Assembly: GCF_000010985.1 (NCBI RefSeq)
Contig: NC_013939.1
Coordinates: 2,075,501-2,139,500, forward strand
Source of the DNA: Deferribacter desulfuricans SSM1
GTDB lineage: Bacteria; Chrysiogenota; Deferribacteres; Deferribacterales; Deferribacteraceae
Reading direction: 5' to 3'
DNA: 64,000 nt
The stretch's first letter is position 1. Each line of letters begins with the position of its first letter. The translations under genes were made by a program, and so were the position numbers. Shown here one piece after another: positions 8,882 to 53,481 of this stretch. The notes beneath the pieces were generated by a model. That model made no database searches. It saw nothing but the letters and a program-made list of their open reading frames with translations, and had not been told where the DNA came from.

Positions 8882-8893
8882 AAACCCTCCTTT

Positions 8894-10070: not shown

Positions 10071-10090
10071 ATATTAGTTCCTCTATTTAG

Positions 10091-17563: not shown

Positions 17564-17568
17564 TTGCA

Positions 17569-17624: not shown

Positions 17625-17661
17625 CCAATACCCGGGGACACTTACACCCATAATTTGGGTG

Positions 17662-17815: not shown

Positions 17816-17821
17816 AATAAA

Positions 17822-17850
17822 CCAATACCCGAATAAAAAATTTTTTTCAA
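17822..17850 (-). promoter_or_regulatory. Candidate sigma70-type promoter of the cobalamin operon
   Basis: Reading the minus strand, TTGAAA (17850-17845) is followed by a 17-nt spacer and TATTGG (17827-17822). The predicted start falls at about 17816, right at the 5' base of riboswitch stem P1, which supports the assignment. The -10 is weak. Confidence 0.45.
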
Positions 17851-17858
17851 CAAATTCC

Positions 17859-17887
17859 TTGAAAATTAGAATTGTTTTAATTATCTT
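17859..17887 (+). promoter_or_regulatory. Candidate promoter of the ABC exporter; possibly leaderless transcript
   Basis: TTGAAA at 17859-17864, a 17-nt spacer and TATCTT at 17882-17887 fit a sigma70-type promoter. Only 7 nt separate the -10 from the ATG at 17895, and there is no Shine-Dalgarno sequence. Transcription would start at or within a base or two of the ATG. It lies back to back with the cobalamin operon promoter. Confidence 0.45.
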
Positions 17888-17894
17888 CATAAAA

Positions 17895-18746: not shown

Positions 18747-19483
18747 TAAATGGGTTTTATGGTGTATATTTGAGAGAATTATTGGTTTTAAAATCAAGGT
18801 TTTGGAAAGTAATATTATCCAGTGCCATTTCTCCACTTTTATTTTTACTGGCTTTTGGGTATGGAGTAGGAAGGAATTCAGAGATAAACGGCTTTAGTTA
18901 TTTGTCATTTTTGCTGCCTGGTTTAATTACTATGAGTTCTATGAATCAAGCCTATAGTATTTCAACTGAAATTAACATTTCAAGATTTTATTTCAAAGTA
19001 TTTGATGAATTTTTACTTGCTCCAATTCCCAAGTGGCAAATTATATTGGGAGAAGTTTTTTATGGTATTACTAAAGGATTAATACCAGTTTTTATTGTTA
19101 TCTTTTATAGCCTTATAATAGGGGTTAAATTAAGCATAAATTTTTATTTTTTTATATCATTAATAATACATTTAATTGCATTTTCTTTACTTGGTTTTAT
19201 TATTGCATTAGTTGTAAAAAACCATGGAGACCAATTTAGTTTCAATACATTTATAATAACTCCTATGATTTTTTTGTCGGGAACATTTTATCCAGTGGAT
19301 AAGATGCCATCTATTATAAAATATATTGCACATATTTTCCCTTTAACATATTCTACGAAACTAATAAGAAGTTCTTTACTTTTAAAAACTATCTCTTTAA
19401 GTAATTTTTATATTTTATTATTTATAATAATTATTCTCTGTTTTCTAGCAAATATAATAGTGAATAAAATAGAAACAACGTAA
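18743..19483 (+). CDS. ABC-2 type exporter, permease protein
   Basis: 246-residue membrane protein with about six hydrophobic segments. YLSFLLPGLITMSSMNQAY and the C-terminal block GTFYPVDKMPSIIKYIAHIFPLTY are the ABC-2 transporter signature, seen in NodJ/DrrB-like permeases. It overlaps the ATPase gene and completes a minimal exporter. No third component follows. Drug, lipid-linked saccharide or small-molecule export are all possible; sequence does not decide. Confidence 0.85.
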   Translation: MINGFYGVYLRELLVLKSRFWKVILSSAISPLLFLLAFGYGVGRNSEINGFSYLSFLLPGLITMSSMNQAYSISTEINISRFYFKVFDEFLLAPIPKWQIILGEVFYGITKGLIPVFIVIFYSLIIGVKLSINFYFFISLIIHLIAFSLLGFIIALVVKNHGDQFSFNTFIITPMIFLSGTFYPVDKMPSIIKYIAHIFPLTYSTKLIRSSLLLKTISLSNFYILLFIIIILCFLANIIVNKIETT

Positions 19484-19613
19484 AATTTATTCTAAGATTA
19501 AGATATTGGAAGCATCAAAAGCCTTCTCCTACTAAAAAAAACAGTATCAAGTCCTAACTTAAAAAAAAAGCATGTGCATCTTATAGAACAGCCAAATTTT
19601 CTAAAACTAATAA

Positions 19614-19883
19614 TATTTAATAGCAGGAATTTCACCTAATTTTGTTGCACAACAAATGGGACATTCTGGTGTGAGAACTTTATTTGAGAAATATGCAAAA
19701 TTTATTAAAGAAAATGACCACAAAGAAGCTGAAAAACTATCAAAATATCTATCTTTAAAAAATCAAACTGTCAGAAAACTGTTAGAAACTAAAAATCTAG
19801 ACAACCAACCAATTGATAATATTATAAATATCTTAATGGAGCGGAGGGGAGTCGAACCCCCAACCCCTACAATGCCATTGTAG
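19614..19883 (+). pseudogene. C-terminal remnant of a phage-type tyrosine recombinase (integrase), reading into the tRNA gene
   Basis: The open frame from about 19614 reads AGISPNFVAQQMGHSGVRTLFEKYAKFI. This is the C-terminal end of a tyrosine recombinase, with the GHS motif whose His belongs to the catalytic set, and a frame position for the nucleophile Tyr in EKYAKF. The rest of the enzyme (Arg and His-x-x-Arg boxes) is missing, and the 130 nt upstream show only stops and A-runs. The frame then runs on to 19883 through the 3' half of the tRNA-Ala gene. This is the layout left by an element integrated at a tRNA 3' end and then deleted. Confidence 0.65.
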
Positions 19884-19909
19884 TGCTCTCCCAGCTGAGC
19901 TACCGCCCC
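19837..19909 (-). tRNA. tRNA-Ala (anticodon GGC)
   Basis: 73-nt cloverleaf on the minus strand. The acceptor arm is GGGGCGG/CCGCTCC with one G-U pair. The D arm contains GCTCAGCTGGGAGAGC, the anticodon stem is CTACA/TGTAG around loop ATGGCAT (anticodon GGC, 19876-19874), and the T loop contains TTCGACT. CCA is not encoded; the discriminator A is followed by TTA. It lies 40 nt downstream of dppF on the same strand. The integrase remnant lies against its 3' end. Confidence 0.95.
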
Positions 19910-19949
19910 ATATCTTTTTCTTTATAAAAATTAATTTGATTTAGCAAGA

Positions 19950-27518: not shown

Positions 27519-27529
27519 TTAATTATAAC

Positions 27530-27697
27530 AATTTGAGGTTGTTGCACAATGGAACAATTTTCTGATATCACTATAGTTTTGAGATTGCTTCGGCAGCTTA
27601 CACTGCCTCGCAATGACCCAAAATTGCTGTCTTTGCGAGCGTTAGCGAAGCAATCTGAGGTGTTTAAGCAATTATTATTGTGCAACACCCTCAATTT
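27530..27697. repeat. MITE-like dispersed repeat, copy 1
   Basis: A 168-bp element with 21-bp terminal inverted repeats matching at 19 positions (27530-27550 with 27677-27697; core TGTTGCACAAT). Inside is a second palindrome, GAGATTGCTTCGGCAG.. to ..CGAAGCAATCTGAGG, with CTGCCTCGCAATGA and TTTGCGAGCG. It encodes no protein of note. A diverged copy is at 39422 and the end of another is at the right window edge. Confidence 0.75.
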
Positions 27698-37668: not shown

Positions 37669-38747
37669 TGCTCTATATTAAACGCATTGATTTAGATTAT
37701 ATATTAACTAAAGGGATTGAAAATTGTAACCTGATTGATGTAAGATCACCTTCAGAATATTTAGAAGATCACATACCAACCGCTGTAAATATCCCACTTT
37801 TAGATGACAATGAAAGAGCTATTGTGGGAACAATTTATAAAAAAGAAGGCTCAAACAAAGCAAAATTAAAAGGCGTAGAAATTGTTAGCCCTAAAATCCC
37901 CCAATTTATAAATAAAATAAAAAAGTTAGTCGATAATGGGAAAGAAACAGTCATTTATTGCTGGAGAGGCGGAGACAGAAGCGAAGCTATGTGTGCTTTT
38001 GCAAAACTAGCTGGTCTCAATGTCTCTAAATTGGCAGGTGGATACAAAATCTTTAGAAAGTTTGTCTATAATTTCTTTACAAGTAAATTTAGCTTAGAAT
38101 ATAAACCCAAGATAATAGTAATGTATGGGCCCACAGGTTCCGCTAAAACAAAAATCCTAGAAGAACTTTTTAAGGAAGGATACCCTGTTATAAATCTTGA
38201 AAAACATGCCTGCCACAAAGGTTCAAGCTTTGGTTTTATAGGAGAAAAAGGGTTTGATAGTATTACTCAAAAGAAATTTGAATCAAGATTGTGGTATAAT
38301 TTTTACCTGTTAAATTACCCAAAATATATCTTAATAGAAGGTGAAAGCAAAAAAATTGGCAAAGTCACTATACCCGATACTTTATTTAGTTTAATGAATT
38401 CAGGTATTTCTATTCTAACAGAACCAAGTTTAGAGTTTCGGGTTAAATACACTCTAGAAAATTATTTACCATTTACTGATATTAATTCAATCACTAAAGC
38501 ATTAGATAAAATAAAAAAGTATTTAGGAAAAAAAAGGAGTGAACAACTTATTAATTTTTATAAAAATCAAAAATACGAATATTTTGTTAAAGACTTATTA
38601 GAAAATTATTATGACCCTCTTTATTACAAATCTTTACCGGACAAAATAGAATATAAAATCTCTTACAACACTATAGATGAAGGGATAAAAAATGTTAAAA
38701 AAATATTACAATCTGTTTTTAATAACTCTTGTACTATTAACAGTTAG
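37668..38747 (+). CDS. mnmH: tRNA 2-selenouridine synthase (MnmH/SelU)
   Basis: Replaces sulfur by selenium at the wobble 2-thiouridine, via a geranylated intermediate and selenophosphate. The N-terminal rhodanese domain (about 1-130) has [19 protein letters not shown] and the catalytic Cys98 in [12 protein letters not shown]. The P-loop GPTGSAKT is near 154, and the family block [12 protein letters not shown] follows. Length (359 aa) is normal. It implies selenophosphate (SelD) elsewhere in the genome. Its 3' end overlaps rlpA by 56 nt. Confidence 0.93.
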
Positions 38748-39414
38748 CTGCGCCACAAAATATCATCCACCAAAATATAAAGCAAAAGGTGTTCGATATG
38801 GTAAACCATATGTTATCAGAGGTAAATTATATTATCCATATACAAAAATTTCTCACTTTCAGCAGGTTGGTATCGCCTCATGGTATGGAAAAGAAGAACA
38901 TGGAAAATTAACAGCAAGTGGAGAGCGGTTTAACATGTATGATTTAACAGCTGCTCATAAACTACTCCCTTTAGGAAGCTATGTGCATGTCAAAAATCTA
39001 GAAAATGGTAAAGAAGTAGATGTTAGAATAAATGATAGAGGCCCATTTATTAGTGGAAGAATAATCGACCTTTCTTATGCTGCTGCAAAAAAAATAGGAA
39101 TTGTAGAAAAAGGGACTGCAAAAGTAAAAATTACTTTACTATCAGAAAGCCCTGACTTTTATCAGGTAAAAGGAGAAAGATATAATCTTGATAAAGGTAA
39201 CTTTGCAATCCAGATAGGATCATTTAAAGTTTATAACAATGCCTATAAACTTTCAAAACAGTTTAGAAATTCAAGAATAGAAAAAGCCTATATCCACGGA
39301 AATACTTTTTATAGAGTCCAAATAACTGGTTTTAACTCTTTAGAAAAAGCACAAAAAGGACTAAACGATATAAAGTATAGATTCCCAGGAGCATTTATCG
39401 TTTCCCTCGACTAA
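38692..39414 (+). CDS. rlpA: RlpA-like lipoprotein: double-psi beta-barrel plus SPOR domain
   Basis: Septal-ring/peptidoglycan lytic transglycosylase-like lipoprotein, 240 aa. Residues 1-20 are a lipoprotein signal (LLTVSC, Cys20). The double-psi barrel spans about 60-140: [32 protein letters not shown] and the catalytic-type Asp in [11 protein letters not shown]-terminal SPOR domain ([15 protein letters not shown] onward) should bind denuded septal glycan. The ATG has AAGGGA upstream and lies 56 nt inside mnmH. Confidence 0.93.
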
Positions 39415-39421
39415 CACCAAA

Positions 39422-39585
39422 TCGAGGCTGTAGCACAATGGGTCAATATCTTGATATCACAGTAGTTTTGAGATTACTTTGGCAACTTTTGTTGCCTCGC
39501 AATAACCTAAAAATGTTGTCATTGCGAGCATCAGCGAAGCAACCTGAGGAGCTTTTGCAATTATTATTGTGCAATATCCTCATAA
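39422..39585. repeat. MITE-like dispersed repeat, copy 2
   Basis: A diverged copy of the element at 27530, in the same orientation. Shared segments include GTAGCACAATGG at the left, CTTGATATCACAGTAGTTTTGAGATT, GTTGCCTCGCAAT, TTGCGAGCATCAGCGAAGCAA, CAATTATTATTGTGCAA and a right end near TCCTCAT. It lies just after rlpA. No gene is seen in the 39415-39636 gap. Confidence 0.75.
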
Positions 39586-39602
39586 TATCCTGTCTTCATA
39601 TA

Positions 39603-39632
39603 TTATGACAGGGTGAAAACACCCTGTCATAA
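39603..39632. terminator. Hairpin terminator between convergent rlpA and the lipoprotein gene
   Basis: A perfect 13-bp stem (TTATGACAGGGTG with CACCCTGTCATAA, loop AAAA) lies at the meeting point of two convergent genes. T-runs are weak on both sides, so it could also protect 3' ends. Confidence 0.65.
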
Positions 39633-39636
39633 TGGA

Positions 39637-41265
39637 TTAAAATAAACTATCTATAACCACTTCATCTTTATCTGGTGTTTCTGTTACCCTATATAAGCTA
39701 TTACTGTTGTTTAGATTTACATAAAACACATCAGAATTATCATCATCAAACTCCATATCAAATAAAATTGAATCACTAAAATTAAAATTTTGATCAATAT
39801 AGAGATATCGATAACCATCATCTGGTAATGTCCCTAAGTATATTGTGTCATCTTTAGAAAAATTATTGACAATGCTTTCTTTAGTAATAACTCTTAAATC
39901 TCCTCCATACAAATATAACTCCTTATTTATATCATTATTTTTTACTATTGTTGGATTTTCTACTAACAACAATTTATCCACTGGTAATTGAAAATTGTAA
40001 ATATCAACGGTATTGGTTGATGAGAGAGTAGCTAACATCCAGTAACTATTATTCTGGCTATCGTAACAATGTGTATTATTGTCATTGTCTTCCCAATAAC
40101 ACGCTTCTACTTTTGTACCATTATCAGAAACTTTGTTGAAATAAAGTTTATTTTTATCAAGAATAAATGTATCACTCCCAAATGACTCTAATTTATAACC
40201 TTCTGGGGGTTGATAAATAACCAAATGTGAACTTCCGTCCTTTTTCATTGCCCAAATTTCTGAATAAAAATGATTTGTACATGAAGGATTTGCATATTCT
40301 ACAGTTAAAATTATATAATTATCTGTCCCACCAATTAAATCAGCATCTACTAAGGAACAGTTATCCGTAAAGTTATCATTGAAAATATTGGACATCGAAT
40401 TATTATCAAAATAATATTTTGAAATAATGAAATGTGCTGGGAGGTTGTAATTATTATCTTGTATATTAAGAAAATATAAACTGTTATTATCAGTATAAGA
40501 ATCTACAAATCCGGCAGGAACTGCAATAGATGTGTTGTCAAGGCTATTGTTATCTTTATTATATTTAAAAATATAATTATTTATTGAATAGTATTTTGTT
40601 TCTATAGTTTTATACCCTAACAAATCAAACTCATCAGACCCTGTAAAAGCAATTGTACAGTTTTGTAAATCTGTATCACATATCTTTATAGTATTATTAT
40701 CACCTATTAGAAATTTTGTCAAAGTACCATCTGATGAATACAAAACATCGCTATTAAAAATATTATAATTAAATTCTATTTTATTAATGACCTGACCATT
40801 GTTGTATTTTAATAAATAACTTTTATCATTATCAGTGTATACTAACAGATATGTTATATCATTTTTAAAATCTGGTAAATACGCTATTCCATTTGCATTT
40901 GTTATATCTCCTACAGCTACTGGAGATGGGAAAGATTCCCCATTATTATGCAAATTAAGTTTATAAACAATACCATTATAAATATAAAAGATTGAATCAT
41001 AATGAAGCCCTGTATAAATACCAGTATCTGTATTGTAGTTTTTAATTTTAAAAACAGGTAAATAATCGTCAATTTGACCATCTACAACTGTTTTTCTCAA
41101 CGTTGGATCTTCAGCATCAACAAGATTTATACTACCTTCATAAGGTAAGAAACTACCAGATGTTGTTACTGCATTGTTATCTCCGTTATCATCAAAACAA
41201 CCGTATAAGAATATAATAGATAAAAACATTATTATAAAAAGGCTTAGCTTTTTAAAAGAAAACAT
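39637..41265 (-). CDS. Secreted lipoprotein of unknown function, Asn/Asp/Tyr-rich
   Basis: 542 aa. The signal peptide ends in the lipobox LYGC (Cys23), so the protein is lipid-anchored. The mature part is rich in Asn, Asp, Ser and Tyr and shows repeated short beta-like segments (for example YLLVYTDNDKSYLLKYNN, YKLNLHNNG, IWAMKKDGSSHLVIY). This suggests a beta-propeller-like or extended beta structure, as in surface WD/PQQ-like proteins. No catalytic motif stands out. It has a good ribosome-binding site and stands alone between a terminator and the nar block. Confidence 0.8.
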   Translation of the reverse strand: MFSFKKLSLFIIMFLSIIFLYGCFDDNGDNNAVTTSGSFLPYEGSINLVDAEDPTLRKTVVDGQIDDYLPVFKIKNYNTDTGIYTGLHYDSIFYIYNGIVYKLNLHNNGESFPSPVAVGDITNANGIAYLPDFKNDITYLLVYTDNDKSYLLKYNNGQVINKIEFNYNIFNSDVLYSSDGTLTKFLIGDNNTIKICDTDLQNCTIAFTGSDEFDLLGYKTIETKYYSINNYIFKYNKDNNSLDNTSIAVPAGFVDSYTDNNSLYFLNIQDNNYNLPAHFIISKYYFDNNSMSNIFNDNFTDNCSLVDADLIGGTDNYIILTVEYANPSCTNHFYSEIWAMKKDGSSHLVIYQPPEGYKLESFGSDTFILDKNKLYFNKVSDNGTKVEACYWEDNDNNTHCYDSQNNSYWMLATLSSTNTVDIYNFQLPVDKLLLVENPTIVKNNDINKELYLYGGDLRVITKESIVNNFSKDDTIYLGTLPDDGYRYLYIDQNFNFSDSILFDMEFDDDNSDVFYVNLNNSNSLYRVTETPDKDEVVIDSLF

Positions 41266-41458
41266 GACATCTCCTTTCTCTAGTTTATTATTGAAAATAA
41301 TTTATTTTATTCGATGTTTCTCATTTTTCAAGTTATTTTATATGTAAAAAAGCATAAAATTTATAACAAATATAAATTTATTAATTTACTATAAAATAAT
41401 TATTTAAGTTTTAAATACTCTCTAGAGAATATTAAATTTGAAAAATTCTTTATATCGA

Positions 41459-41761
41459 TTATGTTACCTGCACCTGTATATCTATCCTATCCATAAGAGG
41501 CCCTGATAACTTTGCCCTGTATCTTTGAATTTGAGCTTGAGTGCAGACACACTCCCTTTTACTATCACCCAAATACCCACAAGGGCAAGGATTACAAGCT
41601 GCTACAAACATAAAATTTGCTGGATAAACTACCGTCCTATTTGCCCTGCTGACTGTCACCACCCTATCTTCTAACGGCTGTCTCAAAACCTCAAGCACAC
41701 TCTTTTTAAACTCTAACACCTCATCGCAAAAAAGTATCCCATTGTGGCCGAACATAACCAC
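41459..41761 (-). pseudogene. Internal fragment of comM (duplicate of part of 51955-53481)
   Basis: Positions 41465-41746 match 52309-52590 of the intact comM without any indel over 282 bp. The 94 encoded residues ([13 protein letters not shown] to [10 protein letters not shown]) are identical. About 14 bases differ, all synonymous, and most are in the half encoding the C-terminal side; the last ~85 bp are identical. Both ends of the gene are missing, as are the P-loop and the C-terminal domain, so it cannot work as ComM. It lies 19 nt downstream of the PAS gene at the end of the nar block, in the same orientation as the full gene. Confidence 0.9.
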
Positions 41762-41780
41762 TTTATCAACGAATCCTAAC

Positions 41781-42161
41781 CTAGAGATCTTTATTTTTTT
41801 CTTTTTTTCTCATAATAGCAAAACAATATTCAATATTCCCTTTATTATCAGTTAAAGTTGTTAACTTGAAATCCACAAATATTTTTTTATTGTTTTTTGT
41901 TATAGCAGGGACTGATAGCAAATGCTCATTACTGTATTTGCCTCTGCCTGTTTTAACAAAATTAAAAAAAGCTTCCCAATGTCTTTGCCTCAATTTTTCT
42001 GGAATTATGATGTCTAGACTACTGTTTATGGCTTCCTCTTTACTAAATCTAAATAAATCTGAAGCACCAGAATTCCAAAAACGAATTATACCTTCTTTAT
42101 CAATTGCTAAAATTGCATCCGCAGCATTTTCAACAAATTTAATAATTGTTTTTTCGTCCAT
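41781..42161 (-). CDS. Single-domain PAS sensor protein, possibly heme-binding
   Basis: 126 aa, one PAS fold only ([29 protein letters not shown] to [12 protein letters not shown]). There is no kinase, cyclase or DNA-binding domain. The segment [13 protein letters not shown] places a His (61) where FixL-type PAS domains have their proximal heme ligand, followed by [13 protein letters not shown] as in the S-box subfamily. It is 1 nt from the stop of narK, so it is likely co-transcribed with the nar genes. A redox/O2/NO-sensing partner of the nar system is inference. The lack of an output domain means it would have to act through a partner. Confidence 0.8.
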
Positions 42162-42162
42162 A

Positions 42163-43467
42163 TTAAACTCCTTGACTAGATTTTTTTAATAGTACTGATA
42201 TAACAATACCAATAACTGCTAATAGCATATAAACAATAAAGCCTTTTGCATAGCCAATTTTACCAAATAAATCCACGAAAATACCAAGCAAAGGAGGTAC
42301 TACAAACCCACCAAAAGCTCCTAAGCCACCAACCCAACCACTGGCACCACCAGGAGCATTAGGCACATATTTTGGAACAAGTTTAAAAACCGCAGCATTT
42401 GCTATCCCCATACCAATACTTATTGTTATTTCACCTATTAAAGCTATTATAAACTGATTAGTAAAAACAAGAATAAAAGCACCTATAAATACTATAGAAT
42501 AACTAATAATAGCAGTTTTTTCTCCTCCTATTTTATCACTTAAAAAACCACCATATACCCTGATAAAGGATGCTAACAAAGAAAAACCAAAAGCCATTAA
42601 TAAACCAGCTTGTCTTATACCAACATTATGTAACTCTATCCAATATGTAGGAAACCATGCAGTAAGTGCTAAAAATCCTCCAAAAGAAATAAAATACAAA
42701 ACTACAAGTCCCCATGTTTTTGGTACTTTAGCTGATATCTTTAATGATTCTATTACTTTTCCAGATGGAAAAAGTTCTTGCCCTAACTCTTTGGAAATTT
42801 TAATCGCTTCTTCACGGGATACCCCTTTTTGAATTAATTGAAAATAATATGCATCATTTGCAAAGAATAAATAAATTATTGTGCCCGTTAATAAAAATAA
42901 GAACCAGGAAGCGTATGCCCCAGTTAAACCAATAGCACCAAGAATTACGGGTAAGATAATTCCGAAAATACCAGGTGCTGTGTTACCTAAACCTGCATAA
43001 GTTCCTAGAGCAAATCCCTGTTTTTTCTGAGGGAACCAATATGATGTTTGAGGGATTCCTACAGAGAATGTTGCAATTCCACAACCACTTAGTAATCCAA
43101 AAATAAAGATAATAGGATACATTTTTATACTAATCTTCTCGGGATAATAAAAATATAAAACAAGAGTCAAACCTGCCATACCAATTACTGATAAAAATAG
43201 AAGAGTAAGCATTGGCTTTTTACCACCAACTCTATCAACCCAAGCCCCAAAAGGAATTCTTAATAAAGACCCCGTTAAATTTGGTGCTGCCACCAACAGA
43301 CCTAATAATACTCCAGACATATGCATTACATTGTTAAAATTTTTAGCAACAGGACCATATAAAGAAACTGCAGCAAATCCCACAAAAAAGCCAAAGGTCG
43401 CCATTATTAATCCTGAATTTGGCGTTCCTTTTAGTCCGTATTTTATAATTAGATCTTTTTTAGACAT
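42163..43467 (-). CDS. narK: NarK-type nitrate/nitrite MFS transporter (12-TM)
   Basis: Major facilitator of 434 aa with about 12 hydrophobic segments. LRIPFGAWVDRVGGKKPM is the MFS loop 2-3 motif, and FALGTYAGLGNTAPGIFG is the first nitrate-signature (G-x-x-x-G-x-GN region). A second, GGASGWVGGLGAFGGFVVP, is near the C-terminus. It lies downstream of narI with a 15-nt gap. A second NarK at the head of the block suggests one nitrate/proton symporter and one nitrate/nitrite exchanger; which is which is not settled by sequence. Confidence 0.9.
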   Translation of the reverse strand: MSKKDLIIKYGLKGTPNSGLIMATFGFFVGFAAVSLYGPVAKNFNNVMHMSGVLLGLLVAAPNLTGSLLRIPFGAWVDRVGGKKPMLTLLFLSVIGMAGLTLVLYFYYPEKISIKMYPIIFIFGLLSGCGIATFSVGIPQTSYWFPQKKQGFALGTYAGLGNTAPGIFGIILPVILGAIGLTGAYASWFLFLLTGTIIYLFFANDAYYFQLIQKGVSREEAIKISKELGQELFPSGKVIESLKISAKVPKTWGLVVLYFISFGGFLALTAWFPTYWIELHNVGIRQAGLLMAFGFSLLASFIRVYGGFLSDKIGGEKTAIISYSIVFIGAFILVFTNQFIIALIGEITISIGMGIANAAVFKLVPKYVPNAPGGASGWVGGLGAFGGFVVPPLLGIFVDLFGKIGYAKGFIVYMLLAVIGIVISVLLKKSSQGV

Positions 43468-43482
43468 ATACTGCTCCTACAA

Positions 43483-44142
43483 TTAATTGTATATTATTCT
43501 TTGTGGTTTTCTAAAAAAATATCCAATAGGAACAAATACTACGTGAATAAGCCTAGTAAATGGCAATATTGCAAAAAGTATAAATGCAATTAAAAAATGA
43601 AAAGTAACCAAAATTGGAAACCCCTCAACGTATTTAACTTGTGGGCTTAAAATTAAAATACTCCATAAATATTTAGTTATATTCGATACATACCAAGCAA
43701 TTCCCCATTTATAATTAATTGCAATAATAAGCCCTAATACTACCTGAATGAACAATAAAATCATAAAAATATAATCTGTAAACAGTGAGTGTTTATTTAC
43801 ACTTTTTACTGCAAATTTTCTTATTAGCAAAACTAAAATCCCTATGAATGCTATTAAGCCTGAAGATACAGCTAAAGCCTCAAAAAGAAGCAAGACAGAG
43901 TAATTAGTAAATAATAATTTAAAAAGCCCTGGTAATAAAAGACCGGATAAATGTCCTATTAAAACTATAATAATACCATAATGCCAAAGAGGTGAACCAG
44001 TATTTAATTTGTTTTTCTCAAAAAATCCTGTTGCAGGAGCTGAATTTCGCAATTTCCCATAACTGAGATTAAATACTAACCCAACAATAAAAAACGCTAT
44101 AGATAAATAAGGTATTATTATATAAACTAAAATATCAAGCAT
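43483..44142 (-). CDS. narI: Respiratory nitrate reductase gamma subunit (b-type cytochrome)
   Basis: Membrane subunit, 219 aa with five hydrophobic segments. It takes electrons from quinol and carries two hemes b. LWHYGIIIVLIGHLSGLL and VTFHFLIAFILFAILPFTRLIHV contain the paired His ligands in the expected helices. NSAPATGFFEKNKLNTGSPLWHYG matches the NarI loop. It overlaps narJ by 8 nt. Confidence 0.92.
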   Translation of the reverse strand: MLDILVYIIIPYLSIAFFIVGLVFNLSYGKLRNSAPATGFFEKNKLNTGSPLWHYGIIIVLIGHLSGLLLPGLFKLLFTNYSVLLLFEALAVSSGLIAFIGILVLLIRKFAVKSVNKHSLFTDYIFMILLFIQVVLGLIIAINYKWGIAWYVSNITKYLWSILILSPQVKYVEGFPILVTFHFLIAFILFAILPFTRLIHVVFVPIGYFFRKPQRIIYN

Positions 44143-44638
44143 ATTTTACCTCCAAAATTTTTTGAATATCGTTTAAATAATATTTTAAAGATTCCACTAT
44201 CTTGTAATAGACACTGCTTCTCTCATTAAATGAATTCAAAATGTCACAAACAGATCTTTCAATCATCGCTGTTAAGTAACTTAATTTTTCTGGATATTCT
44301 TTTTTATTTATTGCAATATACAAAGCTGACAAAATCGTAGGCAAATAATCTGGTGAATGTTTTATATTTGGTTTACCGCCATACAACTTTAAAAACTCAT
44401 TCATTGCTAACAAGAACATTTTCCTTTCATCATCATTCTTAGAAATATGTTTTGAAATATAAAGTGTTGATTTCTCATTAAAATCGAAAATGGACACATA
44501 CTCTTCTTGTAATTCTGATAATTTAATTTTAGAAAAATCTAATTTTAAATCACCTATCAAATTACAACTACACATAAATTCTTTATAATCTAAGGGATAC
44601 TCAAGTAATTTACTATAAACAGTTAATTTTTTTATCAT
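44135..44638 (-). CDS. narJ: Nitrate reductase assembly chaperone NarJ
   Basis: Cytoplasmic chaperone (TorD/NarJ family) for cofactor insertion into NarGH. 167 aa, shorter than enteric NarJ. SKLLEYPLDYKEF at the N-terminus, EEYVSIFDFNEKSTLYISKH and GGKPNIKHSPDYLPTILSAL match the family's helical pattern and its Y-V-x-x-FD-x-x-x-x-x-L-Y/H motif. Its position between narH and narI with short overlaps at both ends is diagnostic. Confidence 0.88.
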   Translation of the reverse strand: MIKKLTVYSKLLEYPLDYKEFMCSCNLIGDLKLDFSKIKLSELQEEYVSIFDFNEKSTLYISKHISKNDDERKMFLLAMNEFLKLYGGKPNIKHSPDYLPTILSALYIAINKKEYPEKLSYLTAMIERSVCDILNSFNERSSVYYKIVESLKYYLNDIQKILEVKYA

Positions 44639-46077
44639 TTTCTAAACCCTTTTTTGCCTCTTAATCCAAAACCTATTGTTCCTTGTTGTTCATAAGAGTC
44701 TTTATTGCTCCCTTTAGCTGTCTGAGGTATATTATATCTTTCATGAATTGTTGCCTGGGTAAACAGTTTGTAAGCCTTTAATATTAAATCTTCTTCAAGT
44801 TTTGAATTTTTCAAAATCTCTGCTAATTTCTCTTTATCTCCCAACATTTTTGCTCTCATATATTTCCTAACAACAATTAGTTTTTCAATCACATCTTTAA
44901 TTATTTTCTCATTTCCCGCTGAAAAGATTTTAGACAAATATTTAATTGGAATCCTTAGTTTATCTACTTCAGGAATATAATCTTCAGTATCTATTGTAGG
45001 CAAAATCGGGGATAAAGGAGGAACATAAAAAACCGACGGAAAAGTTCTAAATTCTGGATGCAGGGGCAAAGCTATTCCAAGTTCTTTTACATAAGAATAT
45101 GCTGGAGAAGATTTTGCAGCTGTTATCCACTCTTCACTAATACCAGATTCTTTTGCAGCCCTAATAACATCTTCATCTTTTGGATCAAGAATACATTCTC
45201 TAATGTAATCAACAAGATTTGTATCATTTTCAGTCAATATAGCTGTCAATTTATCTACATCATATAATATTACCCCAAGACTTCTGATTTTACCAACACA
45301 GGATTGTGAACATATAGTAGCCTCACCATTTTCAATCCTAGGATAACAAAAAATACACTTTTCAGATTTTACATTATTCCAATTAAAATATACCTTTTTG
45401 TAAGGACATGCTGATATACAATATCTCCAAGATTTACATTTTTCTTGATTAACTAATACAATACCATCTTCCCCCCTTTTGTATATAGCTCCAGATGGAC
45501 ATGAAGCAACACATGCCGGATTCAAGCAGTGATTACACAATCTAGGTAAATAAAACATAAATACAGTTGATAATTCTTTTATTAGTTTTTTTTCTTCATC
45601 AGATAGATTAGGATCATTTAAAGCATATTCATCAGAACCACTTAAATCATCATCCCAGTTTGGACCACTTTTAACTTCAATATAATCCCCCGTAATCTCA
45701 GATATCGCTCTTGCAGTAGGTTGATAATCACCATCTGCTGCATTAAAAAGATGCTCATATTCATATGACCAAGGTTCATAGTAATTTCTTACTGTTGGCT
45801 GATCAGGATTGTAAAATATCTTAGACAAAAGTTTAAGTTTTCCCCCAATTTTTAGACTCAGCCCATTATCTGTTTTTATCCAACCACCTTTGTACTTTTC
45901 CTGATCTTCCCATCTCTTTGGATATCCAGTTCCTGGTTTTGTCTCCACATTGTTCCACCACATGTATTCTGCACCTTTTCTGTTTGTCCACATGTTCTTA
46001 CATGTGACACTACATGTATGACATCCTATACATTTTTCCAAATTTAAAATCATTGAAAACTGAGCTCTAACATCCAT
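44635..46077 (-). CDS. narH: Respiratory nitrate reductase beta subunit (iron-sulfur)
   Basis: 480 aa electron-transfer subunit with four Cys clusters: CIGCHTCSVTC near residue 16, CNHCLNPACVASCPSGA, CKSWRYCISACPYKK, and CIFCYPRIENG/CSQSC. Trp in CKSWRYC replaces a Cys, which gives the expected 3Fe-4S cluster beside three 4Fe-4S clusters. NNVETKPGTGYPKRWEDQEKYKGGW and IHERYNIPQTAK are NarH-specific. It is cytoplasmic and binds NarG. It overlaps narJ by 4 nt. Confidence 0.96.
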   Translation of the reverse strand: MDVRAQFSMILNLEKCIGCHTCSVTCKNMWTNRKGAEYMWWNNVETKPGTGYPKRWEDQEKYKGGWIKTDNGLSLKIGGKLKLLSKIFYNPDQPTVRNYYEPWSYEYEHLFNAADGDYQPTARAISEITGDYIEVKSGPNWDDDLSGSDEYALNDPNLSDEEKKLIKELSTVFMFYLPRLCNHCLNPACVASCPSGAIYKRGEDGIVLVNQEKCKSWRYCISACPYKKVYFNWNNVKSEKCIFCYPRIENGEATICSQSCVGKIRSLGVILYDVDKLTAILTENDTNLVDYIRECILDPKDEDVIRAAKESGISEEWITAAKSSPAYSYVKELGIALPLHPEFRTFPSVFYVPPLSPILPTIDTEDYIPEVDKLRIPIKYLSKIFSAGNEKIIKDVIEKLIVVRKYMRAKMLGDKEKLAEILKNSKLEEDLILKAYKLFTQATIHERYNIPQTAKGSNKDSYEQQGTIGFGLRGKKGFRK

Positions 46078-46078
46078 C

Positions 46079-49000
46079 TTAGAACCTCACTTTATTTAAT
46101 TTTTTAACCACTACATAAGTGTCCCTATTGACCCCCACTGGTCCCCAATAATTGAAGTAATAGCTAAACTGTCCACAACCACCTACCATAGCCAGAGGTT
46201 TTAACCTAACTCTTGTCAGACTATTATGATTACCCCCTCTATTGTTTGTTTTTTCTGATATTGGCACATTAATAGTTCGTTCCGTTGCATGATATATATA
46301 ACAAACTCCAGATGGCATCCTGGATGAGACTACTGTCTTGCAGATAACAACTCCATTTTTATTATAAACCTCTACCCAATCATTGTCCTTTATACCATAT
46401 TTTTCCGCATCAACATTATTTAACCAGATTACCTGTCCACCTCTTGACAAACTAAGCATCCTTAAATTGTCATAATAAGTACTATGGATATGCCATTTCC
46501 CATGAGGTGTATGATAATTTAAAACAAGGCCATCCTGAGTTTTAATGAGCTCATTTAAAACATTTTCTGGTAAGTTAGGTTTATATACAGGAAGCATCTC
46601 TCCAGCATATTTATAAAACTCATGATCCAGATAAAAATGCTGCCTTCCCGTCAAAGTTCTCCAGGGCAGACCAAACTCTGTGTTAATTGTATATGGAGCA
46701 TATGGTCTTCCTTCATCAATAATACCACTCCAAATAGGGGATGTATTAAGTCTTCGGGGTTGTATCGTTATATCATCAAAATCCATTTTTACCTTCTCAT
46801 TCCCTTTTACCAAAGTATCAAAATTAATGCCTGTAAACTTCGATAAAGATTTAAAACCTTTAACTGCCACTTTACCATTTGTTTCTGGAGCAAGATGTAG
46901 TATTGCATTTGCAACATTAATAGGTTCTTCTAAGCTAGGAAATTCTTCATCAGCTAATCTGATTGCACCATTTTTTATTTTTAATTCTTCATACTCCTCG
47001 GATGAATCCCAGCTAACACCATGAGCACCAATAGATTTTGCAGCATTTGGTCCCAAAGAAATAAACTTGTGATATATTTTTTTATAGTCTCTCTCGATAA
47101 CTGCCAATTTAGGTATTGTTTTTCCAGGAATTGGCTCTGTCTCTCCATATTTCCAGTCTTTGACATCTCGCTGCATTATTTCTTCTGGAGTATCATGCAA
47201 AAGTGTTGCTACTACTAAATCTTTTACTGATTTTGGAAAATGTTTTTCTGCAAGTGCAGAAAATTTCTTAGCAAGATCTTTAAAAATATTCCAGTCACTC
47301 TTTGATTCCCATAATGGAGCAACTACTTTTCTCAATGGATGGACAAAAGAATGCATATCTGTCGTATTAAGATCATCTTTTTCATACCATGTGGCAGCCG
47401 GTAAAATTATATCAGAATAAAGCGCAGATGTATCCATTCTAAAATTAATATCCACAATAAGATCAATTTTTCCTTTAGGTGCTTCTATTTGATTATTTAC
47501 ATCCTTTAATGAAACTGCTTTTTCCTCAGCTGTCAAATTATCCGATGTTCCTAAAACATGTCTCATAAAATATTCGTGCCCTTTTGCACTACTAGCAATA
47601 GCATTTGCCCTCCAGATAAACCAAACTCTCGGGAAATTTACTGGATTATCAGGCTCTTCAACAGAGAATTTTAACTCACCTTTTTTCAATTTATTTACCA
47701 CATTTGCCTGAGGGTTGTTCAACTTTGCAAGGTTCAATGGATTTTCACTAAAACTAGGATAAAATGGCAACCATCCTAACCTTACAGCTTTAGCTATGAA
47801 ATCAGCTGTATGCTTTTCTTTAAATTTGTTTTCATCATTAACTTTAAAATAGTCAAAAACTTTATCTTCATACCTCCATTGGTCTGAGTGAATATACCAA
47901 AAAGATGGCGTATTTTGTAATCTTGGAGGCTTCAACCAATCACCAGCCATGGCGATTGTTGCCCAAGAAGATAACATAGCTACTTTTTCTTGTCCTACAT
48001 AATGAGCTAAACCTCCTCCATTTACTCCTACAGAACCAGTTAAAAGTAAAGCCATTATCGCTGATCTATACATTAAGTCTTGGTGATACCAGTGATTTAT
48101 CCCAGCTCCAATTATAATCATTGATTTACCACAAGTTTTCGCTGCATTTTCAGCAAATTCCCTTGCGACTTTTATAACTGTATCAGCATTTACACCAGTA
48201 TACTTTTCCTGCCACTTAGGAGTATAAATTTTATCATCATAATATGAAGACGGATAATCTCCTCCTAAACCTCTATCAACACCCAACATACCGTTAAGCA
48301 AATCAAACACCGTTGTGACAAATTTTTTACCTTCCTTAGTTTCAATTTCAAACACAGGTATATTTCTAACATTTTCAACAACTTTATCATTATGATATTC
48401 ATAAAATTTCACACCAATTGTTCTGTCTGAAACTTCAAGTATACTCAAAGTAGGTACAATCTCTTTATCACTAATCCCACATTTATTTATCAATCTCCAT
48501 TTAAATTTGTTTTTTTCATCTTGTGCCCATCTAAAACCAATTGATCCATATGGAAAAACTACATTTTTACTTTCAAGATCTATTACAGCATATTTCCATT
48601 CTGCATTCTCTTCTCTCTCTGTATTCTCAAAATCTGAAGCTCTTACCATTCTACCCATTTCATAGCTATCATTGTTTTCATCTAAATAAACCAAAAAAGG
48701 AAGATCCGTATATTTTCTAACATAATCATCAAAATAACCAGTAATACTTTTATTATAAAACTCATTAAGTATCACATGGTTTACTGCCAACCAAAAAGCA
48801 CCATCTTGACCTTTATTTATTTTAATCCATAAATCAGCTCCCTTAGTTACTGAACTGTAATCTGGTGACATCACCACAATTTTGCCACCTTTCATTTTAG
48901 ATTCGTATAAATAATGAGCATCTGGTGTTCTTGTTACATTAACATTTGACCCCATCAAAACTGTATATGATGAATTAAACCAGTCTGCACTCTCACACAC

Positions 49001-49681
49001 ATCTGTTTGCTCACCCCATACTTGTGGTGATGCAAGAGGTAAGTCACAATACCAATCATAAAAACTCATCACTACACCACCAATTAAATTCAAATACCTT
49101 GAACCAGCTGCATAACTTATTTGGGACATAGCAGGAATCGGTGAAAAACCAATAATTCTATCAGGTCCATACTTCTTAATGGTATAAATATTTGATGCGG
49201 CAATTAGTTCCAATGCTGATTCATAATCAATTCTTCTAAACCCACCTTTACCTCGTTTAACCATATAACTGTTTCTCTTTTCAGTATCTTCTACAATACT
49301 TGCCCATGCATCAACTGGATCATCATATTTCTTTTTTGCATCAAGCCATAAATCAAGAAGCTTTCCTCTAATATATGGATATTTTACTCTTATAGGGCTA
49401 TATAAGTACCATGAAAAGGAAGCGCCTCGTGCACAACCTCGTGGTTCAGTCATAGGAATGTCTCCTCCAATTGCAGGATAATCAGTTGCTTGAACTTCAC
49501 CAACTACGAGTCCATCTTTAACAAAAACATTCCAACTGCAACTTCCTGTACAATTAACACCATGAGTGCTTCTTACAACTTTATCATGCTCCCATCTGCT
49601 CCTATATAATTCTTCCCATTTCCTCTCTTCACTTGATTTTAATATCTCAAACCATGAATTTTTTGTTATTTTTATGCTCAT
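46079..49681 (-). CDS. narG: Respiratory nitrate reductase alpha subunit (molybdopterin)
   Basis: 1200 aa catalytic subunit reducing nitrate to nitrite. The FS0 cluster ligands are His40, Cys44, Cys48 and Cys83 (STHGVNCTGSCSW, PRGCARGASFSW). The molybdenum Asp lies in YDWYCDLPLASPQVWGEQTDV near residue 213. There is no Tat twin-arginine signal at the N-terminus, so the enzyme should face the cytoplasm. GGAGG precedes the ATG. It follows a cytochrome c gene with a 4-nt overlap and precedes narH by 1 nt. Several plus-strand open frames in it are shadows. Confidence 0.97.
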   Translation of the reverse strand: MSIKITKNSWFEILKSSEERKWEELYRSRWEHDKVVRSTHGVNCTGSCSWNVFVKDGLVVGEVQATDYPAIGGDIPMTEPRGCARGASFSWYLYSPIRVKYPYIRGKLLDLWLDAKKKYDDPVDAWASIVEDTEKRNSYMVKRGKGGFRRIDYESALELIAASNIYTIKKYGPDRIIGFSPIPAMSQISYAAGSRYLNLIGGVVMSFYDWYCDLPLASPQVWGEQTDVCESADWFNSSYTVLMGSNVNVTRTPDAHYLYESKMKGGKIVVMSPDYSSVTKGADLWIKINKGQDGAFWLAVNHVILNEFYNKSITGYFDDYVRKYTDLPFLVYLDENNDSYEMGRMVRASDFENTEREENAEWKYAVIDLESKNVVFPYGSIGFRWAQDEKNKFKWRLINKCGISDKEIVPTLSILEVSDRTIGVKFYEYHNDKVVENVRNIPVFEIETKEGKKFVTTVFDLLNGMLGVDRGLGGDYPSSYYDDKIYTPKWQEKYTGVNADTVIKVAREFAENAAKTCGKSMIIIGAGINHWYHQDLMYRSAIMALLLTGSVGVNGGGLAHYVGQEKVAMLSSWATIAMAGDWLKPPRLQNTPSFWYIHSDQWRYEDKVFDYFKVNDENKFKEKHTADFIAKAVRLGWLPFYPSFSENPLNLAKLNNPQANVVNKLKKGELKFSVEEPDNPVNFPRVWFIWRANAIASSAKGHEYFMRHVLGTSDNLTAEEKAVSLKDVNNQIEAPKGKIDLIVDINFRMDTSALYSDIILPAATWYEKDDLNTTDMHSFVHPLRKVVAPLWESKSDWNIFKDLAKKFSALAEKHFPKSVKDLVVATLLHDTPEEIMQRDVKDWKYGETEPIPGKTIPKLAVIERDYKKIYHKFISLGPNAAKSIGAHGVSWDSSEEYEELKIKNGAIRLADEEFPSLEEPINVANAILHLAPETNGKVAVKGFKSLSKFTGINFDTLVKGNEKVKMDFDDITIQPRRLNTSPIWSGIIDEGRPYAPYTINTEFGLPWRTLTGRQHFYLDHEFYKYAGEMLPVYKPNLPENVLNELIKTQDGLVLNYHTPHGKWHIHSTYYDNLRMLSLSRGGQVIWLNNVDAEKYGIKDNDWVEVYNKNGVVICKTVVSSRMPSGVCYIYHATERTINVPISEKTNNRGGNHNSLTRVRLKPLAMVGGCGQFSYYFNYWGPVGVNRDTYVVVKKLNKVRF

Positions 49682-50112
49682 TTGTTTGCCTCCAAAATCT
49701 CATTTTTCCTAAAAAATATTTTTATAGCTACAAAAATGCCTACAAAGAAAATAACAAACAAAGTAAAAAATAAATTATTACTTTCTACATTTTTACTTCC
49801 TAATGAAGCAAAAGCTTTAATAAGGTTATTCAGTTCTTCATCTGAAAGATTTCTACCTTTATAAACAGCATCCATAGGAGGTATCCCACTATCTTTTATA
49901 AAAGATTTAATAGAATCAGCATCCGAGTCAAAATCTATGTATAACGTGCTTAGATCAGGTCCCCATGTTTTACCGGAAAAGCCTGCTGCCTTAATTGAGT
50001 GACAACTTGTACATGCTGGACTCCCATTCTTAAAAGGTTTAGTAAAAGTATTATTATAAGCAAAGAGACTAGTACTAAAAAAAATTATTATTAACACATA
50101 AAGGTATTTCAT
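49678..50112 (-). CDS. Membrane-anchored monoheme cytochrome c of the nar operon
   Basis: 144 aa. A Sec signal peptide covers 1-18 (ending LFA), and one heme-c site CTSCH is at residues 34-38. A likely axial Met is in GIPPMDAV (Met80). A C-terminal membrane helix spans about 114-134 and ends in a basic tail. The heme domain would lie in the periplasm. Position immediately before narG recalls the narC gene of Thermus nar operons, although narC there is di-heme. Possible roles are electron exchange with NarI or with periplasmic nitrite/NO reductases. Confidence 0.87.
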   Translation of the reverse strand: MKYLYVLIIIFFSTSLFAYNNTFTKPFKNGSPACTSCHSIKAAGFSGKTWGPDLSTLYIDFDSDADSIKSFIKDSGIPPMDAVYKGRNLSDEELNNLIKAFASLGSKNVESNNLFFTLFVIFFVGIFVAIKIFFRKNEILEANK

Positions 50113-50125
50113 CTTTCCCCCTTAT

Positions 50126-51727
50126 TTATGGATTTTTTATTTCAGCTTTTGGCCCTTGGTAATACCACCAGTTCAAAAATAGGCATATGATATAATACAC
50201 AGCTAATCCATATAATGCCTTTTCAGGAGTTCCTGCCTTAATTTGTTGGCCAAAAATACCTGGGATTATAAAAGCTCCATATGCTGCAACCGCAGATGTC
50301 CAACCTAATACTGGTCCAGCCAATGCCTTATCAAATATATGAGGAATACTTCTAAAAGTAGAACCATTCCCAATACCAGTGGTAATAAAAAGAATCATAA
50401 ACATAATAAAAAATGGCCACCAATATCTTTCTGGAGTCGGACTTCCTTTTGCTAATTTTATAAAGTAAGCTACTGCAAATGTAGCAATTATTTGCAATAT
50501 AATGCTAATTGTTGTTACTTTTGCTCCACTGTTTACTTTGTCAGATAACCATCCTCCAACTGGTCTAATTAATGCGCCTAAAACTGGTCCTAAAAATACC
50601 CAAAATAAAAAATCTGGTGCATTTGGATTAACAAAAGTGGGATCAGAAGGATTTGAATAAACAAAAACATCTTGACATAGTTTTGGAAAGGCTGCCGAAA
50701 AACCAATAAATGAACCAAAAGTCATCGTATAAATTATTGTCATAACCCAATTATGTTTGTTCTTAAATATAACAAACTGTTGTCTTAAATTTTCTTTAAT
50801 TTGTTTTGGTGTCATATATCTCATAAGTAATAGAGTAAAAATAATAACAAAAGGCAGTACAATCCACATATTTATCTTCAAACTAATTAGCATGTATGCA
50901 CCTATTCCAGCAGCTATAAAACCTAAACATATTAGATATAACGTTTTAATCATACCAACTAACTGGGTAGGAATTTTAGGAGTAGCAGATTGCAAATTAT
51001 TCATTCCAAAGAATGCAGCGATTGAAACTAATATGAGAGGAATTACCCAAACCCAACCTGCATTCTGTACACCAGCTAATGGTACATTTGTGACTATATT
51101 ACCATTTTTGTCTATAGCACTAAACAAATAAACACCTACAGCTATAGGAATAACTTTTTGCATTACTCCTACGCCCAAATTTCCAATACCAGCATTCATC
51201 CCCAAATATGTACCCTGAGTTTTTTTAGGGAAAAAATAGCTTATATTGCTCATAGATGAAGCAAAATTTCCTCCCCCTATACCTGATAAAGCTGCTAATA
51301 TTGCAAAAACAATATACGGAGTATTAACGTCTCTTAAAGCTAAACCAGTACCAATAGCAGGCAATAACAAAAGGAAGGTTGTTACAAATATAACATTTCT
51401 ACCACCAGCAATAGATATTAAAAATGAATTTGGTATTCGCAATGTAGCACCTGTTAACCCTGCAATAGCAGGAAGTGTGTAATACAACATATTAATTTCT
51501 TTTAGTTTCTCACTAACTTGCTCAGGTGTCATATCAGAAGTAATCATCCCAAAATTATAGCCAAACTGTTTCATTTTTGTTATTATCACACTCCACATAA
51601 TCCATACTGCAAATGCTAACAACAATGCTGGGATTGAAATCCATAAATTTCTCAGTGCAATTTTTCTCCCTTTTCTACTAAAATAATCAGGATTTTCAGG
51701 ATCCCAATCATAGATATTAATATTCAC
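50126..51727 (-). CDS. NarK/NarU-type nitrate/nitrite MFS transporter (larger type)
   Basis: Major facilitator of about 533 aa with about 12-14 hydrophobic segments and longer loops than its partner. FASSMSNISYFFPKKTQGTYLGMNAGIGNLGVG carries the nitrate signature, and IRPVGGWLSDKV plus the C-terminal AVAAYGAFIIPGIFGQQIKAG follow. The open frame begins at a TTG (51739), but that codon lies inside GGAGGGT, a ribosome-binding sequence. GTG at 51727, 5 nt later, is the better start. It is the first gene of the nar operon. Confidence 0.9.
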   Translation of the reverse strand: MNINIYDWDPENPDYFSRKGRKIALRNLWISIPALLLAFAVWIMWSVIITKMKQFGYNFGMITSDMTPEQVSEKLKEINMLYYTLPAIAGLTGATLRIPNSFLISIAGGRNVIFVTTFLLLLPAIGTGLALRDVNTPYIVFAILAALSGIGGGNFASSMSNISYFFPKKTQGTYLGMNAGIGNLGVGVMQKVIPIAVGVYLFSAIDKNGNIVTNVPLAGVQNAGWVWVIPLILVSIAAFFGMNNLQSATPKIPTQLVGMIKTLYLICLGFIAAGIGAYMLISLKINMWIVLPFVIIFTLLLMRYMTPKQIKENLRQQFVIFKNKHNWVMTIIYTMTFGSFIGFSAAFPKLCQDVFVYSNPSDPTFVNPNAPDFLFWVFLGPVLGALIRPVGGWLSDKVNSGAKVTTISIILQIIATFAVAYFIKLAKGSPTPERYWWPFFIMFMILFITTGIGNGSTFRSIPHIFDKALAGPVLGWTSAVAAYGAFIIPGIFGQQIKAGTPEKALYGLAVYYIICLFLNWWYYQGPKAEIKNP

Positions 51728-51758
51728 ACTACCCTCCAATTGTTTATTTTATAACACC

Positions 51759-51786
51759 AGTATATTTACGTAAAGCTTCATGTCAA
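51759..51786 (-). promoter_or_regulatory. Strong sigma70-type promoter of the nar operon
   Basis: On the minus strand, TTGACA (51786-51781) is a perfect -35, followed by a 16-nt spacer and TATACT (51764-51759). The spacer contains the perfect palindrome TTTACGTAAA (51765-51774). The start would be near 51752, giving a leader of about 25 nt with GGAGG. Confidence 0.65.
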
Positions 51787-51816
51787 ACAAATTTACAAAA
51801 TTTACAAAAAATTTAC
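51765..51816. promoter_or_regulatory. Array of TTTAC half-sites at the nar promoter (candidate operator)
   Basis: AAATTTAC occurs three times in a row (51789-51796, 51798-51805, 51809-51816) just upstream of the -35. Spacing is 9 and 11 bp, about one helical turn. A fourth TTTAC belongs to the TTTACGTAAA palindrome within the promoter spacer. No clear FNR box (TTGAT-N4-ATCAA) is seen. The array fits cooperative binding by an unidentified regulator. Confidence 0.4.
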
Positions 51817-51954
51817 ATCAGCATATTTTATTAATATCCATACTTTTTTACAGAGAATAAACGCCTATCCTATATGCTTCGATTAAACACTGTTATATTA
51901 TTAAGTGTATATAAATATATACTTATGTTGAAAGCATAATATTATTAATTATAT

Positions 51955-53481
51955 TTAAAAATACTCTTTATCGAGGATGCGGTATTGGATGGCTTCTAAG
52001 AGGTGTTTTGAACTGATATTTTCGCTATTTTCTAAATCAGCAATCGTTCTTGCTACTTTCAATATCTTTGAATAGGCTCTTGCTGATAACCCCATCTTTG
52101 TTACTGCTTGCTCCATCAATTTTATACTTTCACTATCAAGCTTACAATATTTCCTTATCAATTTCTCACTCATTTGAGAATTATACAATATCCCCTCTTC
52201 TTTAAACCTTTCCTGCTGAATCTTTCTTGCTGCCTCTACACGCTCCCTTATACTTGCTGATGATTCACCAGGCTGCAATTTTGATAAATCCTTTATATCA
52301 ATTGATGATACCTGCACCTGTATATCTATCCTATCCATAAGAGGACCTGATAGCTTTGCTCTATATCTTTGAATTTGTGCTTGAGTACATACACACTCCC
52401 TTTTACTATCACCCAAATACCCACAAGGGCAAGGATTACATGCAGCAACAAACATAAAATTTGCTGGATAAACCACAGTCCTATTTGCTCTGCTAACTGT
52501 CACCACCCTATCTTCTAACGGCTGTCTCAAAACCTCAAGCACACTCTTTTTAAACTCTAACACCTCATCGCAAAAAAGTATCCCATTGTGAGCAAGGCTC
52601 ACTGCGCCAGGTTTTGCATCTCTACCACCACCTATAATTGAAACATCACTTGCCGTATGATGTGGCGCAATAAAAGGCCTTTTATTTACAATCCCATTCT
52701 TTTTTAAAAGCCTACCAGCTACTGAGTGTATTTTTGTAGTTTCTATAATCTCATCAATAGTCATTGAGGGCATAATTGTTGGGATTCTCTTTGCAATCAT
52801 TGATTTTCCACTTCCAGGAGAACCAATCATAATAAAATTGTGCATACCACTTGCAGCAATTTCTGCAGCCCTTTTTACAGCAAACTGCCCTTTTACATCA
52901 CTAAAATCCAAATGCTCCTCTTCATCAGATAAAAGTTCATTTATATCCATTTTGACCGGTTCTTTTTTAACCTCACCATTTATATAACCAATCACATCAT
53001 CTAAACTTTGAAATCCAAAAATATCTATTCCATCAATGATGCCTGCCTCGTTTATGTTTTCTTCAGGCAATATTACCCTTTTAAAACCCATCTCTTTTGC
53101 AAAAATAGTAAACGGCAAAACCCCTCTTACACCTCTTAGTTTTCCATCCAGGGAAAGTTCACCAATAAAAAAGGTATCATCAACATTAGCGTTTAAATAT
53201 CCTGCAGCAAGCAATAAAACAACAGCTATAGGCAAATCATAATGAGTCCCCTCTTTTTTGAAATCAGCAGGAGCAAGATTTATAATGATAGGTTTTGCAA
53301 AGATATTAAATCCAAAATTTTTTAATGCAGATTTGACTCTTTCTTTACTCTCTTTGATACTCGTCTCGGCTAAACCCACCACAGAAAATGATGGCAAACC
53401 CATACTTGAAATATTTGCTTCCACCTCAACTAAAACAGGCTCAATCCCTTCTAAATGCGCAGTGGTAACTTTAGCAAACAT
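51955..53481 (-). CDS. comM: YifB/ComM family Mg-chelatase-like AAA+ ATPase
   Basis: 508 aa. The N-terminal Lon-protease-like (S5-fold) domain is at about 1-180, the AAA+ core has Walker A IGSPGSGKSMIAKRIP near residue 218 and Walker [12 protein letters not shown], and the Cys-rich [19 protein letters not shown] lies in the core. The C-terminal domain is Mg-chelatase-like. ComM is a branch-migration helicase acting in natural transformation. It closes the pheA-to-comM gene run (5 nt from sppA). Part of it is duplicated at 41459-41761. Confidence 0.95.
   Translation of the reverse strand: MFAKVTTAHLEGIEPVLVEVEANISSMGLPSFSVVGLAETSIKESKERVKSALKNFGFNIFAKPIIINLAPADFKKEGTHYDLPIAVVLLLAAGYLNANVDDTFFIGELSLDGKLRGVRGVLPFTIFAKEMGFKRVILPEENINEAGIIDGIDIFGFQSLDDVIGYINGEVKKEPVKMDINELLSDEEEHLDFSDVKGQFAVKRAAEIAASGMHNFIMIGSPGSGKSMIAKRIPTIMPSMTIDEIIETTKIHSVAGRLLKKNGIVNKRPFIAPHHTASDVSIIGGGRDAKPGAVSLAHNGILFCDEVLEFKKSVLEVLRQPLEDRVVTVSRANRTVVYPANFMFVAACNPCPCGYLGDSKRECVCTQAQIQRYRAKLSGPLMDRIDIQVQVSSIDIKDLSKLQPGESSASIRERVEAARKIQQERFKEEGILYNSQMSEKLIRKYCKLDSESIKLMEQAVTKMGLSARAYSKILKVARTIADLENSENISSKHLLEAIQYRILDKEYF

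Follow-up and report, generated by a model that had tools for sequence, protein, structure and literature searches.

In the heat-loving vent bacterium Deferribacter desulfuricans SSM1, the genes for nitrate respiration lie between an intact comM gene and a second, partial copy of comM. The question raised by this locus is how the partial copy came to be there and whether the nar genes arrived with it. A sequence-only reading had interpreted the arrangement as the footprint of an integration or an unequal recombination. We analyzed a window of 64 kb (G000:C1:2075501-2139500) from contig 1 (2,234,389 bp) of the SSM1 genome (G000; 2,542,933 bp); positions given below refer to this window unless another replicon or locus is named.

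The nar block and the partial copy of comM

The intact comM gene, which encodes a YifB family AAA ATPase, is located at 51955-53481 on the minus strand and retains a full reading frame of 508 aa that was assigned to the YifB/ComM family (TIGR00368, 604 bits, cut-off 362). It is followed on the same strand by the nar block, in which family scans identified a narK-type nitrate/nitrite transporter gene (50126-51739), narG (46079-49681), narH (44635-46077), a gene for a narJ-like chaperone (44135-44638), narI (43483-44142), and narK2 (42163-43467), encoding a second narK-type transporter (MFS). The first transporter gene and narG are separated by the minus-strand gene of a small cytochrome c-like protein (49678-50112) that has no Pfam match and whose homologues are likewise neighbors of narG in four further genomes of this order. 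The block ends with the gene of a PAS-domain protein (41781-42161, minus strand), homologues of which are also found with nar in G003, G019, and G032, three further members of the order.

The distance between this last nar-linked gene and the partial copy of comM, hereafter the relic (41434-41746, minus strand), is 34 bp. Self-BLAST of the window aligned the relic with nucleotides 892-1205 of comM (52277-52590, minus strand) over 314 columns with 93.6% identity and one gap, on the same strand (E ~1e-133), which makes it the strongest repeat of the window by a wide margin. The self-BLAST and the gene identities confirm that the nar block is bounded by the intact comM and a fragment of it in direct orientation. 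The relic is truncated at both ends. Its proposed size of 282 bp holds for the in-frame core, whereas the alignment goes 31 bp further, to 313 bp in total, and includes a frameshift near comM nt 1178. When the whole genome was searched with comM DNA, the only matches were comM itself, the 313-bp piece, and one chance-level match of 54 bp at C1:1712156, which was discounted as it sits in another reading frame. A search of the flanks for a continuation of the duplication yielded chance-level matches only. A putative scrap of sppA between the PAS gene and the relic was also rejected, because the motif LGFVDK is common at the protein level only and a DNA search gave chance matches.

As the sequence-only reading had stated, no transposase is visible: the family scan of proteins recognized neither a transposase nor an integrase between the two comM copies, and no transposition genes or site-specific recombinase were recognized among the scanned proteins of 38692-53481. 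The nar genes have a native-like codon usage for SSM1, and neither their base nor their codon composition stood out as foreign.

The comM gene is the terminal gene of a block that is conserved in the congener compared here (G001) and in G003 and G010, where the downstream content is unlike that of the window. In the congener, comM is followed by a gene of 138 aa and then by a NiFe hydrogenase; relatives of this hydrogenase are found in SSM1 at 83-94 kb. On the other side, an rlpA-like gene (38692-39414, plus strand) closes a second block conserved in the congener, in which it lies on a different contig from the comM block. The break in synteny between the two blocks is occupied by nar, the relic, and a lipoprotein-like gene (39637-41265, minus strand) with no family match and no DNA match in the congener. 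A nar-less strain in which comM is directly followed by the lipoprotein or rlpA gene had been proposed as support for an insertion. The congener does not provide it: its comM and rlpA end two separate blocks, both flanks are rearranged, and a clean empty site is thus absent there.

At the rlpA edge of the break lies a copy (39418-39582) of a dispersed intergenic repeat of ~160 bp, which has a further copy in the window (27529-27693) and dozens in the SSM1 genome. This repeat folds well on both strands. Its relatives in the congener are shorter and occur in tandem at C9:789-1325, and G010 has other dispersed repeats of ~150 bp.

Divergence of the relic and distribution of nar

The 282-nt core of the relic starts at comM codon 298 and differs from comM at 14 positions, all of which are synonymous. 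Polarization with the comM of the congener, a single and saturated outgroup, placed six changes on the relic branch and four on the comM branch, with four ambiguous. All six relic-branch changes being synonymous has a probability of ~2e-4 under neutral decay, or ~0.003 if the frayed tail is included; the final 31 nt of the relic contain a frameshift and non-synonymous changes. At four-fold sites, the relic and comM differ at 9 of 34 positions, compared with 15 of 31 between the comM genes of SSM1 and the congener, suggesting that the source of the relic was nearer than the congener. Since the core differences are synonymous and this has a low probability, the relic appears to have diverged while coding and to have been cut late from a working comM.

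Where the relic meets the nar side (41652-41746, minus strand), it shows a 95-bp tract identical to comM (52496-52590, minus strand), in a stretch that holds 15 differences in the congener. A tract of this kind has a probability of ~0.003 if the differences are evenly spread, and it is compatible with a crossover, or with a conversion tract, that had its start at the junction. Taken together, these alignments support well a reading of the relic as the scar of a recombination with a diverged, once-functional comM, and not as a local copy that simply decayed. The earlier interpretation of the same-strand partial duplication as a recombination footprint is supported to this extent, with the synonymous-only core specifying the kind of comM involved.

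Of 46 genomes compared within the order, six encode a full NarG. The nar genes are absent from the one congener compared, and among four Deferribacter species they are present only in D. desulfuricans (PMC13186404). No comM homologue was found near nar at the five other nar loci of the order (20 kb around each). The NarGH sets of these six genomes fall into a single clade (97/95), in which those of G013 and G032, both of family f6, cluster with those of SSM1 and G003. A clade of G013, G032, G019, and G029, all of f6, was rejected (AU p = 1.35e-6), while the grouping of SSM1 with G003 has a support of 58. From these trees, nar would either have crossed from one family to another, in one or more transfers, or have been duplicated and then lost. 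The nar tree is in conflict with the families, but the placement of the window's own copy in it is weakly supported. A plasmid NarG was rejected as a source, the closest being that of Thermus with ~56% identity, and viral contigs searched for the junction, comM, and NarH gave no matches.

The two g3 genomes differ in this respect. G003 carries nar, while G010 has a transposase gene in the place of nar, and the adjoining nitroreductase gene is cut. Nar was thus lost in G010 by an IS-linked deletion; its gap is ruled out as the ancestral state as the IS cuts the adjoining gene. This means that the absence of nar alone is no proof of a gain. The nar and IS loci of this pair are L058 8198-20000 with L069 1-622, and L087 4296-6291.

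Partial comM copies beside other metabolic blocks

A genome-wide search for comM relics in the 46 genomes of the order revealed two beyond that of SSM1. The relic of the congener corresponds to comM nt 1226-1515 and adjoins a complex-I/hydrogenase-like block and a CitMHS transporter gene. It is a mosaic, in which the middle windows are ~90-93% identical to the congener's own comM and the following ones ~65-70%. This relic (L055 9693-9990) has the CitMHS transporter gene on one side and a PAS-GGDEF gene on the other, and a phage-type integrase, a TraI_2 helicase, and an Abi_2 gene are found 4-9 kb beyond it.

The other relic is carried by the Calditerrivibrio nitroreducens plasmid pCALNI01 (NC_014749.1), corresponds to comM nt 1376-1527, and adjoins a cobalamin block. 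Its DNA is 82% identical to comM of D. desulfuricans and 70% identical to that of the congener. The cobalamin block (NC_014749.1 40860-58194) is 87-88% DNA-identical to 2-19492 of the window, far above the 66-71% between the congener's own cob genes and those of the window, which argues for a recent transfer of this block between genera. The idea that the pCALNI01 relic directly copies a comM-cob junction from a chromosome found no support, because both Deferribacter cob blocks start, and do not end, on the comM side. The plasmid also encodes a tyrosine recombinase, located far from the relic. In the window, a cobalamin riboswitch (RF00174, 96.6 bits) is present at the cobalamin block (17648-17845), and a tRNA-Ala (GGC) gene (19836-19910) lies at the boundary between this block and one that the window has in common with the congener; in the congener, the tRNA-Ala gene and its adjoining DNA are on a different contig.

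All three relics derive from the 3' half of comM, starting at nt 892 (SSM1), 1226 (congener), and 1376 (pCALNI01). When the 10.4 kb upstream of comM served as a control, no relics turned up in the same three genomes; the matches consisted of orthologous blocks, longer paralogue-like matches at 64-67%, and a few of 33-50 bp. Among the 30 matches listed for comM on plasmids, only full-length homologues (40-51%) were found. The relics are few, were found by following comM, and have mixed orientations, and they accordingly represent a pattern to test rather than a rule. The pCALNI01 relic meets the cobalamin block tail to tail, an arrangement that sets it apart from the other two relics, so that the three may not share a single mechanism.

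Possible origins of the locus and comparison with known systems

The explanation that we favor, at somewhat better than even chances, is that the relic stems from a second, diverged comM of the Deferribacter type and was left when incoming DNA recombined with the 3' half of the resident comM, bringing nar. The incoming molecule would have been a circle or a tandem carrying a 5'-truncated comM and nar. One crossover in comM would then give an intact, possibly hybrid comM, followed by nar and by the 5'-truncated comM in direct orientation, and would place the identity tract near the junction. Whatever of the relic once extended past comM nt 1205 would have been lost later, in the rearrangement that joined the rlpA block. 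It is likely that nar entered in the same event as the relic; homologous recombination as the mechanism and the choice of which copy is the immigrant are both what we infer from this arrangement. A ComEC homologue is present in SSM1, so that DNA uptake would be possible.

This explanation is suggested because the same-strand copy, its synonymous core and identical edge, the break in synteny, the absence of nar in the congener, the conflict in NarGH, and the other relics can be read together. Against it stand the lack of a clean empty site, the native-like codons of nar, the loss of nar in G010, the lack of any remaining vehicle gene, the relic's tail with its frameshift and non-synonymous changes, and the use of one saturated outgroup. 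Of the integration that had been proposed for this locus, the recombination footprint is retained, whereas a clean insertion of nar, its direction, and the suggested part of ComM's own competence function are unproven; the congener is rearranged at the site, and nar has been lost elsewhere.

We also considered that nar is a long-time resident, old in the order and lost in the other Deferribacter species, with the relic stemming from a separate event at an unstable spot and the bracketing being a coincidence. The single NarGH clade of the order, the IS-linked loss in G010, the native-like composition of nar, and the fact that the spot is a synteny break in any case agree with such a history. 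However, it offers no reason for a direct-orientation piece of comM to be found exactly 34 bp away from the last nar-linked gene, and the absence of nar in all three other Deferribacter species requires several losses; we consider it a conceivable but rather unlikely course of events. A full second comM, tandem or dispersed, that worked beside nar, diverged under selection, and was recently cut down would likewise predict synonymous-only differences and partial gene conversion. Yet the comM search showed no second full-length comM in any of the order's 46 genomes, and we judge this origin improbable.

The simplest origin of a truncated same-strand copy would be an internal duplication of part of comM in the SSM1 genome followed by neutral decay, and the last 31 nt of the relic do look decayed. 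The exclusively synonymous relic-branch changes in the core speak against it even if the tail is counted, which makes this origin very unlikely. A site-specific integrase acting at an attachment site in comM (near nt 892-986) would produce the same footprint of an intact gene, cargo, a partial copy, and identity from the junction; the island would have brought a replacement 3' end, the relic would be the displaced native end, and the integrase would have been lost since. A tyrosine recombinase is indeed encoded by pCALNI01, but it is distant from the relic of that plasmid, no integrase is among the recognized genes of the nar block, and the three different relic starts ill suit one fixed site, so that we regard this scenario as highly improbable too.

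Returning to the favored recombination between comM copies, a crossover between the present repeats is predicted to release nar and truncate comM. We put forward a wider proposal as doubtful: in Deferribacter and relatives, the 3' half of comM might be a recurrent, non-disruptive docking place for nar, hydrogenase-like, and cobalamin cargo, docked by recombination of circles or plasmids bearing a comM 3' piece and leaving comM intact. Because the excision of nar via the repeats would truncate comM, the loss of cargo would be penalized. What is new here is that, in three replicons, comM looks like an anchor that persists next to metabolic blocks. So far, comM has been known as a gene broken by mobile elements, whereas here it seems to come through exchange intact while respiratory and cofactor blocks change alongside. 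If true, this would provide a concrete route for vent bacteria to gain nitrate respiration and to pass a cobalamin block between genera by plasmid.

Genomic islands that insert at the 3' part of conserved genes leave a partial copy of the gene at their far end. The SSM1 locus resembles them in its intact gene, cargo, direct-orientation partial copy, and identity at the junction, but differs in that no integrase was recognized in the block and that the point in the gene at which the relic starts varies between species. In Acinetobacter baumannii, comM harbors AbaR and other islands; Tn7-like or other elements disrupt the gene there, with a drop in transformation (PMC7508600, PMC11472951). In both cases comM is the location of large accessory DNA; in SSM1, in contrast, the gene is uninterrupted (508 aa), no transposition genes were recognized in the block, and a piece of comM lies at its far end.

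The nitrate respiration cluster of Thermus, described as a conjugative element, includes a nar operon in which a cytochrome c gene precedes narG and two NarK-type transporters are encoded, and it is patchy between strains (PMC7694296, PMC5748679). SSM1, likewise a thermophile, shares the order of NarG, NarH, NarJ, and NarI, an upstream cytochrome c-like gene (no Pfam match), the two NarK-type transporters, and the patchy occurrence. The NarG proteins are ~56% identical, however, the SSM1 block ends with a PAS protein where Thermus has its regulators dnrST and drpAB, and nar of SSM1 is chromosomal and lies beside comM. Plasmid pCALNI01 differs from the SSM1 locus in its plasmid location, its cobalamin cargo, the part of comM retained (nt 1376-1527), and the tail-to-tail arrangement of its relic; in both, a metabolic block of the D. 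desulfuricans type adjoins a comM 3' end of the D. desulfuricans type.
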